A stretch of DNA of 34,834 nt from an uncultured Clostridia bacterium (GTDB lineage: Bacteria; Bacillota; Clostridia; Christensenellales; Borkfalkiaceae), in contig CALVME010000029.1 in NCBI GenBank assembly GCA_944342055.1, positions 1-34,834 of the forward strand, written 5' to 3'. The notes under the pieces are model-generated. The model ran no database searches and was not told the DNA's origin. It was given only the letters and a program-made list of their open reading frames with translations. The position numbers were made by a program, and so were the translations under genes. Below, piece by piece: positions 7,610 through 10,631 of the stretch (its first letter is position 1; each line of letters opens with the position of its first letter).

Positions 7610-8193
7610 TTTACGTCGAGATTTTCGGCCAGCAGGTCAATTTGTACGCGCAGATCGTCGGGTTCGTAGGGCTCGTCGTCATCGCCTGGTCGTATCAGCT
7701 CAAAAAGCTCGGCTATCTCGCCGTCTCCACCGTCGCCATGGCGATCTTTCTGGCGGAATCGTGCATTCTGTACGCGGATTCCGACACGTTTACGGGGATC
7801 GTGCTCAACGCGGCGGCGGTCGTGCGCAATCTGCTCATGATCTTGTTCCTGCGCAGATACGGCAGGGAGATGCCCGCGTGGGTCGCAGTGTGCCTGCTCG
7901 TCCCCGTCTGGATCATCTGCGTCTTCGGCTTCGGCGCGTGGTATACCTATCTGCCCCCCGCGTTGCAGACGGTGTACACTTTCTGCGCGCTGAGCAAAAA
8001 TTATTACTGCTTAAAGGGCGGCGCGCTCGTCCTGGAGGGCGGCAATCTCTTTTACAACGCTTCGGTGGGCGCGTACGTCGGCATCTTGCGGCAGGTCGTC
8101 CTGGTCACGAGCGTGATCGTCAGTACGATCGTGTATTTCGTGCATTCGCGCAGAGAGAGGGCGGCAAACGCCGCGGAAGCGCCCCGCAGTTAG
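7606..8193 (+). CDS. YgjV-family inner membrane protein, 195 aa
   Basis: The sequence is hydrophobic throughout, with about five to six predicted membrane helices. The pattern Gly-x-x-Gly-Leu-Val-Val-Ile-Ala-Trp-Ser-Tyr-Gln in the first helix is that of the YgjV (Imp-YgjV) family. Its function is unknown; in several bacteria it lies next to sugar-acid or carbohydrate genes. The ATG sits inside the fucosidase stop region (ATGA), so the two are translationally coupled and probably serve the same sugar pathway. The last 15 residues are a charged, Arg- and Ala-rich cytoplasmic tail. No transport activity should be assumed from the sequence. Confidence 0.7.
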   Translation: MIYVEIFGQQVNLYAQIVGFVGLVVIAWSYQLKKLGYLAVSTVAMAIFLAESCILYADSDTFTGIVLNAAAVVRNLLMILFLRRYGREMPAWVAVCLLVPVWIICVFGFGAWYTYLPPALQTVYTFCALSKNYYCLKGGALVLEGGNLFYNASVGAYVGILRQVVLVTSVIVSTIVYFVHSRRERAANAAEAPRS

Positions 8194-8240
8194 AGAAAAA
8201 TTGTAAAAAAATGCATTTCATGGCAAAAAAGTGCAAAAAG

Positions 8241-8278
8241 AAAGCGGCTTGGGATTAGGGATTCCCTGTAAGGGATTT
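8241..8278 (+). repeat. Left inverted repeat of the methyltransferase cassette
   Basis: Begins AAAGCGGC and ends TCCCTGTAAGGGATTT. The inner part is itself a small dyad (TCCCT/AGGGA). It pairs imperfectly with 9208-9245. Confidence 0.5.
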
Positions 8279-8292
8279 AATTGAATCATTAC

Positions 8293-8325
8293 AAAACTCG
8301 ACTTTTCACAAGTCGAGTTTTCTTT
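8293..8325 (+). terminator. Intrinsic terminator upstream of the methyltransferase gene
   Basis: AAAACTCGACTT pairs with AAGTCGAGTTTT around TTCAC, followed by CTTTT. It lies about 100 bases after the ygjV stop and would insulate the next gene. Confidence 0.8.
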
Positions 8326-8342
8326 TACCAAAATAGAACAGA

Positions 8343-8371
8343 TTGAATTAAAGTTAATTTTATGTTATAAT
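8343..8371 (+). promoter_or_regulatory. Promoter of the methyltransferase gene
   Basis: TTGAAT (8343-8348), 17-bp spacer, TATAAT (8366-8371). A CGGAGG ribosome-binding site (8398-8403) precedes the ATG at 8410. Confidence 0.8.
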
Positions 8372-8409
8372 AAAGTCATCGATAAATAAGAATTTAACGG
8401 AGGTTATGT

Positions 8410-9060
8410 ATGCTTGAAAAAATGAGTGATTTTTTTGAGGCAAGACTTGACGGATATGATGAACATATGATGACTAACATCGAATATGCAAGCGAGTTCT
8501 ATCCTTTTACGGCAAAGCAATTACCGACCGCTGAAAACTGTTGCATACTTGATTTGGGTTGCGGTACAGGATTGGAACTGCAAGAATATTATAAGCTTAA
8601 TTCTTCGGCAAAGGTTACGGGAATAGACCTTTCACAAGGAATGCTAACCGAGCTTCAACGAAAATTCGTTGGCAAGAATATAACCTTGATTCTTGACTCA
8701 TATTTTGATGTTCCGCTTGGTGAAAATGTGTTTGATGCCGCTGTGTCTGTTGAAAGTCTGCATCATTTTACAAAAGAGGAGAATATTTCCCTATATGCTA
8801 AACTTCATACTGCACTGAAAGAAAACGGTTACTTTATACTGACGGATTACTTCTCCTTGTCAGATGACGAAGAAAAGATGCATCGTCAAAACTTGATTGC
8901 CTTAAAAACAGAACAAGGTATTACCGATGACGAGTTTTACCATTATGATACACCCCTCACTGTGAAACACGAGATTGAAGCATTGCTTGAAGCAGGTTTT
9001 TCCAATGTCGAGGTTTTGAACCATTGGGGAGCAACATACACCGTTAAGGCAGTTAAATAA
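8410..9060 (+). CDS. Class I SAM-dependent methyltransferase, 216 aa
   Basis: Residues 46-54 read Ile-Leu-Asp-Leu-Gly-Cys-Gly-Thr-Gly, the SAM-binding motif I of class I methyltransferases. Thr-Gly-Ile-Asp-Leu-Ser near 72 supplies the acidic residue at the end of strand 2, and Ser-Val-Glu-Ser-Leu-His-His-Phe near 115 corresponds to the later motif of the Methyltransf_11/25 group. The target (small molecule, protein or RNA) cannot be inferred. Base and codon use (many AAA, GAA, TTA, ATT codons) differ sharply from the GC-rich neighbours, pointing to recent acquisition. The gene has its own promoter and flanking terminators and lies between imperfect inverted repeats. No partner gene is present in the cassette. 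Confidence 0.85.
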   Translation: MLEKMSDFFEARLDGYDEHMMTNIEYASEFYPFTAKQLPTAENCCILDLGCGTGLELQEYYKLNSSAKVTGIDLSQGMLTELQRKFVGKNITLILDSYFDVPLGENVFDAAVSVESLHHFTKEENISLYAKLHTALKENGYFILTDYFSLSDDEEKMHRQNLIALKTEQGITDDEFYHYDTPLTVKHEIEALLEAGFSNVEVLNHWGATYTVKAVK

Positions 9061-9167
9061 CTGACAAATTCCAATTTATCGAGTTGATATTTTTTGTGGA
9101 AAATTTTCAAAAGTGTAGCACACTATACTTAACAACGTTAGGTGGTGTGTTTTGCAAAGCAAAAAGT

Positions 9168-9196
9168 AAAGGATAGCAAAATTTTGCTATCCTTTT
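9168..9196 (+). terminator. Terminator after the methyltransferase gene
   Basis: AAAGGATAGCAAA pairs with TTTTGCTATCCTTTT with almost no loop. The stem is long and the flanks are A/T-rich, so it can act on both strands. Confidence 0.75.
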
Positions 9197-9207
9197 ATAA
9201 CGTCTAA

Positions 9208-9245
9208 AAATCCCATTTAGGGACTCGGCTTTTCCAGGCCGCTTT
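9208..9245 (-). repeat. Right inverted repeat of the methyltransferase cassette
   Basis: The reverse complement starts AAAGCGGC and ends GGGATTT like the left copy. On the plus strand its outer part contains CGGC/GCCG followed by seven T, so it may also serve as a weak terminator. Confidence 0.5.
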
Positions 9246-9248
9246 TTT

Positions 9249-10631
9249 TCAGCGATCGCGCTCGATGAGGTTTCTCGCGAGGTGCACGCCCATGACGGAC
9301 GCCATCATGAGCCCGCGCGTCCAACCGCTCGAGTCGCCCAGGCAGAACAGGTGTTCCACGTTGGTCTCGAGCCGCTCGTTCATCTTGATCTTGTTGGAAT
9401 AGAATTTGAGCTCGGGCGAGTAAAGCAGCGTCTCGTTTCCCGCAAAGCCGGGCACGACGTGGTCGACCGCCTGAATGAAATTGATGATGTTGATCATCGC
9501 GCGGTAGGGCATGGCGGAGGTGATGTCTCCCGCGACGGCGTCCCTGAGGCTGGGGCGGACGTTGGAGCGGGAAAGCTCCTTTTCCCAGGTACGCTTGCCG
9601 TCGAGGATGTCGCCGTATCGCTGCACGAGGATGTGCCCCGCGCCGAGCATGTTGGTCAGTTCGCCGACTTTCTGCGCGTAGGCGATGGGCTGATTGAACG
9701 GCTCGGTGAAGTTGTGCGAGCAGAGGATGGCGAGGTTGGTGTTGGGAGATTTGAGGTCCTTGTAGGAGTGACCGTTGACGACGGCGAGGTCGTTGTCGTA
9801 GTTTTCCTGCGCGACGAATCCGCCCGGATTCTGGCAGAAAGTGCGCACCTTGTTCTTGAAGGGCTTGGGGTAGCCGATGAGCTTGGACTCATAGAGCACT
9901 TCGTTGACTTCCTCCATGACTTCGTTTCTCACCTCCACGCGCACGCCGATGTCGACGGTGCCGGGTTTGTGGGCGATGTCGTACTTCGCGCAGATCTTTT
10001 CCAACCAGTCCGCGCCCCTCCTTCCCGTGGCGATGACGATGTCCTTGCCGAGAATTTCCCGATTGTCCACGACGACGCCCTTGCAGACGGCGCCCTCGAG
10101 CAGGATGTCGCGGCATTCCGTGTTGTAGAGGATCTCCACCCCGCGGGAGAGCAGGAACTGCTCGATGTCGTAGTAAAGTTTCTGCGCGCGCTCGGTGCCG
10201 AGGTGGCGGATGGGGCAGTCGACGAGTTTCAGATTCGCCTGAATGGCGCGCTTCCTGATCTCTTTGACGCGGTCACCCTGGTTGATGCCCTCGATCTTGG
10301 TGTCCGCGCCGAAGTTCAGATAGATGCCGTCCGTGTAATTGATGAGGTCCTGCGCCTTCTCCGCGCCGATGAGGTCGGGAAGTTCCCCGCCCACTTCATA
10401 GCTCAGCGAGAGCTTGCCGTCCGAAAACGCGCCCGCGCCCGAAAAACCCGTCGTGATGTTGCAGGGTTGGCAGTTCATGCACCGCCCCGTCTTCGCTTTG
10501 GGACACTTTCTGTTTTCGACGCTCTTTCCCTTCTCGATGATGAGGATGCGCCTGTTCTTATTTTGCAGAATGAGTTCGAGTGCGGTGAAGATGCCGGAAG
10601 GCCCCGCGCCGACGATGATCAGATCGTACAT
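9249..10631 (-). CDS. FAD-dependent dehydrogenase/oxidoreductase (COG2509-like), 460 aa
   Basis: An N-terminal dinucleotide-binding motif Gly-Ala-Gly-Pro-Ser-Gly (residues 8-13) marks the FAD site. A Cys-rich segment follows at about 43-58 (Cys-Pro-...-Cys-Met-Asn-Cys-Gln-Pro-Cys-Asn-Ile), then Gly-Ala-Gly-Ala-Phe-Ser-Asp-Gly-Lys. The C-terminal Leu-Gly-Asp-Ser-Ser-Gly-Trp-Thr-Arg-Gly is the flavin-contacting end. This combination is that of the uncharacterised FAD-dependent dehydrogenase group; the substrate is unknown, and the cysteines may bind a metal or cluster. AAGGAGG before the ATG at 10631 fixes the start. A consensus promoter lies at 10701-10729, so the gene can be transcribed alone although it follows two small genes on the same strand. 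Its stop lies 4 bases from the right repeat of the methyltransferase cassette. Confidence 0.85.
   Translation of the reverse strand: MYDLIIVGAGPSGIFTALELILQNKNRRILIIEKGKSVENRKCPKAKTGRCMNCQPCNITTGFSGAGAFSDGKLSLSYEVGGELPDLIGAEKAQDLINYTDGIYLNFGADTKIEGINQGDRVKEIRKRAIQANLKLVDCPIRHLGTERAQKLYYDIEQFLLSRGVEILYNTECRDILLEGAVCKGVVVDNREILGKDIVIATGRRGADWLEKICAKYDIAHKPGTVDIGVRVEVRNEVMEEVNEVLYESKLIGYPKPFKNKVRTFCQNPGGFVAQENYDNDLAVVNGHSYKDLKSPNTNLAILCSHNFTEPFNQPIAYAQKVGELTNMLGAGHILVQRYGDILDGKRTWEKELSRSNVRPSLRDAVAGDITSAMPYRAMINIINFIQAVDHVVPGFAGNETLLYSPELKFYSNKIKMNERLETNVEHLFCLGDSSGWTRGLMMASVMGVHLARNLIERDR

Follow-up and report, generated by a model that had tools for sequence, protein, structure and literature searches.

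The window, the whole 34,834-nucleotide stretch of Clostridia DNA analysed here, contains a methyltransferase gene that very probably belongs to a non-autonomous mobile expression cassette, one member of a family in which a frame that inserts into terminator loops carries cargo exchanged at inner sites. What is novel is the cassette family, not the methyltransferase, which resembles generic small-molecule methyltransferases. More tentatively, the family may represent an undescribed gene-capture system of Clostridia, in which genes bounded by the inner sites are swapped among terminator-homing frames; this system would be integron-like in function, with another site, a recombinase acting in trans and a platform that is itself mobile. 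We found no description of this combination in the literature, our coverage of which was incomplete, so that this is weak evidence of novelty.

The preliminary description had noted a 38-bp imperfect inverted repeat around an AT-rich, methyltransferase-bearing interior, and realignment bore this out. Positions 8241-8278 and the reverse complement of 9208-9245 are identical at 27 of 38 positions without gaps, sharing the outer AAAGCGGC and the inner GGGATTT, and the local alignment score of 27 compares with a maximum of 24 among 556 control segments of the window and was reached by 1 of 2,000 mononucleotide shuffles. The interior has a GC content of 0.36 vs ~0.58-0.60 in its surroundings, a single SAM-methyltransferase gene, a promoter that matches at 10 of 12 positions and has an extended -10, and terminator-like hairpins 3' of the open reading frame (Table 1). 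This copy is placed mid-contig, between a ygjV-like gene and a gene for a FAD-dependent oxidoreductase.

Reading the 38-bp repeat as the ends of the element proved wrong. The repeat combines host terminator arms (8241-8252 and 9234-9245) with element ends (~8257-8278 and 9208-9229). A host intrinsic terminator supplies the outer 12 bp, AAAGCGGCyTGG, one half on each side, such that the outer third is an interrupted host sequence that differs at every insertion. A single 38-bp TIR was ruled out, as the outer arms are specific to each unit and correspond to terminators that are intact where the site is empty. Judging from the putative 2-bp duplication, the window element would span about 8257-9229, with TT at both flanks. 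The first right-frame hairpin (window 9108-9133, GTGTAGCACACTATACTT) also occurs alone at many other places, chiefly in genomes G045 and G005, and may constitute a stand-alone repeat family.

Table 1. Features of the cassette copy in the window, with the evidence for each.
Feature	Position	Strand	Evidence
Left half of interrupted host terminator: A-rich run, then AAAGCGGCTTGG (8241-8252)	8233-8252		pairs with 9234-9245
TT, left copy of putative 2-bp target duplication	8255-8256		offset-15 dinucleotide comparison
Left terminal inverted repeat (TIR), AGGGATTCCCTGTAAGGGATTT	8257-8278	+	inner AGGGATTT family-wide; outer part differs by subfamily
Conserved left frame	8271-8404	+	24/61 relatives; 84/301 family genomes
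Bidirectional hairpin in left frame, AAAACTCGACTT..AAGTCGAGTTTT	8293-8321		perfect 12-bp arms; family-wide conservation
Frame promoter, TTGAAT-17-TATAAT	8343-8371	+	conserved in type-A frames
Inner 5' exchange site, TCGATAAATAAGAATTT	8379-8395	+	imperfect inverted copy of 9066-9082
Cargo: class I SAM methyltransferase, 216 aa	8410-9060	+	Pfam Methyltransf_25, E=7e-19
Conserved right frame	9064-9214	+	24/61 relatives
Inner 3' exchange site, CAAATTCCAATTTATCGA	9065-9082	+	array junctions formed by same site
Terminator-like hairpin 1, CACACTATACTTAAC..GTTAGGTGGTGTG-TTTT	9119-9153	+	arms covary among the copies compared
Terminator hairpin 2, AAAGGATAGCAAAATTTTGCTATCCTTT	9168-9198		sequence
Right TIR	9208-9229	-	comparison of copies
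TT, right copy of putative 2-bp target duplication	9230-9231		offset-15 dinucleotide comparison
Right half of interrupted host terminator, CCAGGCCGCTTTTTTT	9234-9249		pairs with left arm; intact terminators at empty sites of another unit, L249

As the preliminary description had suggested looking for, the same frame was found with many other genes in relatives. DNA searches of 61 relatives with the left frame (query 8100-8410) and the right frame (query 9061-9250) each returned matches in 24 genomes; left-frame matches begin mostly at 8271, not 8241, and end mostly at ~8396, while the commonest end on the right is 9214. The left frame is present in at least 84 of the 301 family genomes, in which no more than two candidates each were scored, and in 16 of 18 genera; further families of the order have it too. 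Left and right frames keep a constant order and orientation around differing DNA, the left laid out as TIR, bidirectional hairpin and promoter and the right as two terminator hairpins and TIR, the TIR being [AG]GGGCGTCACTCTTAGGGATTT; several frames are degenerate. The genomes used appear to be MAGs almost without exception, and many of their contigs stop ~100 bp inside cargo. The genome that contains the window has a second copy with 90% identity (G000:C40), whose left frame lies at one contig end (L127, G000:C40) and whose right frame lies at another (L209, G000:C81), its cargo being split by the contig break.

We recovered 28 complete units of 544-1741 bp (0.5-1.7 kb), plus one of 3.2 kb, and in all except the latter the main cargo gene is placed 3' of the left frame and shares its orientation. 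Cargo functions, assigned at family level only, fall into about two dozen kinds, among them methyltransferases, GNAT, VOC/glyoxalase, GrpB (twice), beta-lactamase-fold hydrolase, EamA transporter, maltose-acetyltransferase-like, XRE plus PAP2, DUF4238, DUF4097 (three), zinc-ribbon proteins and putative lipoproteins. A NERD-domain protein also stands behind a left frame, the right frame there being matched only partly. The methyltransferase is one kind among many, exchanged independently of the frame. The 3.2-kb relative (L336:560-3780) lies between paired TIRs and contains a putative WYL-type regulator and, on the opposite strand, a GIY-YIG-like gene (domains named by eye), possibly another class of cargo.

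No recognisable transposase or recombinase was found among the cargos of the 28 complete units. Of the two labels first offered for the locus, a transposase-less cassette or a MITE, the former stands; the latter was ruled out, since MITEs are short (<~200-500 bp) and non-coding whereas these units are much larger and coding. The proposal of a mobile single-gene unit is largely right: the ends recur around other cargo, and empty sites exist for one copy (below). Some units carry two genes.

Beyond the shared GGGATTT, the arms differ from copy to copy, each left arm comprising an A-run and a stem and each right arm the complementary stem and a T-run. Examples are AAAGCGGCTTGG / CCAGGCCGCTTT in the window, AAAAAAACGGCTC / GAGCCGTTTTTTT at L249, CACCCCGT / ACGGGGTG at L146 and GCAAGCC / GGCTTGC at L160. 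Over 19 units, pairing between own arms sums to 320, vs 196 +/- 12.8 when arms are permuted, with none of 100,000 permutations reaching 320; own and mismatched arms were also compared on 13 units, and the pairing of the window's arms ranks first of 19 against mismatched flanks. Since own arms pair far above permuted ones, we conclude that the arms are two halves of one locus-specific hairpin.

The site orthologous to that of unit L249 is empty in three related species (G105, G027 and G102). Once joined, the flanks of L249 align uninterrupted to G105 and G027 (query 1-775 and 3-768 of 840, respectively) and across the junction in G102, and all three empty sites have an intact hairpin with A-run and T-run at the junction (GAACTGGC TAAGTC GCCAGTTC TTTTTTT; AAAAAAGTGCGATTATATCGCACTTTTTTTT; AAAAAAAGCGACTTATAAGTCGCTTTTTT). 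These intact terminators indicate that the frame inserts into the terminator loop. A fourth species, G103, has an uninterrupted terminator nearly identical to the L249 arms, with an unrelated insertion of 0.9 kb next door (L273 / L281, G103:C8 ~97676-98586), adjoining the terminator that hosts L249 in G077; this terminator site may be a small hotspot.

The empty site proposed for the window's own locus, joining the ygjV and FAD-oxidoreductase ends, was not found, because synteny at the FAD gene does not extend to relatives, and in the congener this gene stands in another context. By analogy with the other copies, the window element would likewise have arrived by insertion. Aligning the copies, another check suggested at the outset, placed the ends at ~8257-9229 and pointed to a putative 2-bp target duplication at a fixed offset: in 12 of 14 well-defined units, against 5.3 expected from mismatched units, the dinucleotide 15 nt outside GGG is the same left and right. 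Matching dinucleotides occur in 14 of 19 units (TA 7, TT 4, AA 3); the duplication is A/T-only and is missing from some units. Two outcomes that had been named as speaking against mobility, the gene kept at the same locus with unrelated flanks and a repeat match that does not recur, did not occur.

The histories of frame and cargo are uncoupled. Across 60 type-A units, frame identity and cargo identity are uncorrelated (r=0.05): 44 pairs have frames >92% identical and unrelated cargo, and 97-98% identical cargo is housed in frames at background identity, as in L234/L294 and in the window and L079 (cargo 98% and frames 50% identical). This lack of correlation, with near-identical cargo in unrelated frames, indicates that cargo is exchanged, probably at the short inner inverted sites. 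Copies of the methyltransferase elsewhere, in MAGs of other Clostridia and without such a frame, are 98.6% (L006) and 98% (L079) identical to that of the window, and the match to L006 stops at 8384 and 9082, at the inner inverted sites TCGATAAATAAGAATTT / AAATTCCAATTTATCGA, such that the inner 5' site bounds the 98% identity.

The same site also joins arrays. Tandem gene pairs are connected by a 41-bp junction, CAAATTCCAATAGGTCGAACAGTTAGGAAAATAAGAATTTG or close variants. It links different gene pairs, some within frames (L298, L318, L321) and others without one, the latter also in other orders of the class (L006, L007, L010, L333-L335); in the arrays examined the junction itself shows no promoter. 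Tandem units outside frames include a GNAT gene followed by a methyltransferase (L006:4341-5673, L007:278-318, L010:5649, L333-L335). A second, unrelated frame type, with hairpin TGCACC..GGTGCG and then TATAAT (L010:4906-4985, L079:1127-1200), stands ahead of this inner 5' site and the methyltransferase gene; the inner site is therefore compatible with at least two platforms.

TIR searches for an autonomous element with these ends returned none in 101 genomes (<=3 mismatches in 23 bp) or in 396 genomes (<=2 mismatches in 19 bp), in assemblies where a transposase-bearing copy could be missed, as MAGs often miss IS copies; the matches were frames, and those outside frames were chance or cargo-bearing. 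A motif scan of 1.5 Mb of fetched loci detected no IS630, IS30 or tyrosine-recombinase signatures. An IS3-type orfB fragment beside one TIR (L332:935-1620, G045) was considered as an autonomous partner and rejected, being truncated at the left TIR; a possible origin is insertion into, or recombination with, an IS. Other readings of the unit were rejected too: a phage moron had no match in phage records or IMG/VR, plasmids yielded only distant methyltransferase homologues, and no Rfam family matched as a structured RNA.

Combining these results, we propose a model in which the outer shell is a transposon-like frame, with imperfect TIRs that enclose a bidirectional hairpin of presumed insulating function, a promoter of the sigma-70 type and a pair of 3' terminators. 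Moved presumably by a DDE-type transposase acting in trans, the frame enters intrinsic terminators of the host at the loop, with a putative 2-bp duplication. Its own terminators would stand in for the broken one, so that neighbouring genes stay insulated; from the anatomy, the left-frame hairpin and the two right terminators would together restore the insulation lost with the host terminator. Between short inverted sites (TCGATAAATnnGAATTTG ... CAAATTCnnATTTATCGA) the frame holds one gene, sometimes two in tandem, which the frame promoter would express. The cargo is swapped among frames and genomes, probably through recombination at these inner sites that is either site-specific or guided by sequence.

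Several known kinds of element could account for parts of this picture. The shell resembles mobile insertion cassettes (MICs; cited in PMC6542083), and the locus could be an ordinary MIC, in which a passenger has replaced an IS transposase, a related IS mobilises the unit in trans, and cargo varies through repeated replacement or homologous recombination. TIRs, the putative short target duplication and passenger genes between IS-like ends with no transposase in the units all agree with this, and frames 85-99% identical could indeed swap cargo by homologous recombination. Frame recombination, however, leaves unexplained both the near-identical cargo in unrelated frames or without a frame (L079, L006) and the array junction common to other orders, and neither TIR search (101 and 396 genomes) found a parent IS with equal ends that could supply the transposase, in MAGs where IS copies are often missed. 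We therefore regard an ordinary MIC as possible but somewhat doubtful. Focusing on the inner units, these might instead be modules of Xer or another tyrosine recombinase, like the dif modules of Acinetobacter, housed inside a separate transposon. Genes lying between inverted, near-palindromic sites, one of which is common to adjacent units, reproduce the configuration of dif modules, where genes stand between inverted sites and neighbours share one (PMC13141974); yet the central bases of the 5' and 3' sites are unlike each other and no excision product was seen, making this reading unlikely.

Less probable again is a relative of integrons that lacks the integrase, with true integron gene cassettes as cargo and a degenerate attC as inner site. 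Promoterless single-gene units in tandem behind a platform promoter would fit, as would the cargo itself (GNAT, VOC, methyltransferases, beta-lactamase fold). Against it, the junction GTCGAACAGTTAGG (GTCGAAC-A-GTTAGGA) deviates from RYYYAAC/GTTRRRY and sits centrally in the site, not at its ends; it folds weakly (-3 to -6 kcal/mol as DNA); a motif scan found no tyrosine-integrase motif in any unit or fetched flank; and Firmicutes have almost no complete integrons (PMC9024848). Finally, MAG contigs that end ~100 bp inside cargo are what assembly chimeras or shared repeats would produce, and the repeats might in principle be coincidental, flanking horizontally acquired genes beside common terminators. 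This we consider extremely improbable, given that frames come in pairs, in constant order, around many different cargos, that the window copy lies mid-contig, and that the matched arms, empty sites and uncoupled frame and cargo identities all contradict it.

Integrons are the textbook platform for gene capture. A common platform that lacks a transposase, expresses the accessory genes it captures and settles at the least harmful sites would account for the transfer of single genes among gut and rumen Clostridia, and the frame would provide a sequence handle for cargo discovery, including beta-lactamase-fold, GNAT, VOC and transporter genes. Because the cassettes break MAG contigs, the cassette gene pool is systematically under-counted.

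Among known systems, MIC231 of Bacillus cereus shares the IS-like ends, the passenger gene, the absence of a transposase and presumed mobilisation in trans; unlike MIC231, the frame here has no parent IS found, has its own promoter and terminators, targets terminator loops, and houses passengers of about two dozen kinds that are exchanged independently. Integron gene cassettes and CALIN likewise comprise single-gene accessory cargo, placed in tandem through a conserved site and expressed from a platform promoter (predicted here), whereas the present site is without attC boxes, no integrase was seen in units or flanks, there is mostly one cassette, and the platform is itself mobile and terminator-targeted. 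The pdif modules of Acinetobacter, likened here by site arrangement and not by dif core sequence, share the short inverted bounding sites, the common site of neighbours and the lack of an encoded recombinase; they differ in occurring on Acinetobacter plasmids, the present units being in Clostridia genomes and housed in an expression frame. A putative A/T dinucleotide duplication is shared with MITEs of the IS630/Tc1-mariner type (RUP, Correia), from which the units differ in having no matching transposase in 1.5 Mb, bearing genes, being much longer and duplicating TA, TT or AA. IS30-type elements target hairpins or palindromes, and a hairpin target is common to both. Group IIC introns, too, are associated with intrinsic terminator hairpins; the cassettes share this association and are set apart by having no reverse transcriptase in any unit and by in-loop insertion, TIRs and a putative target duplication.
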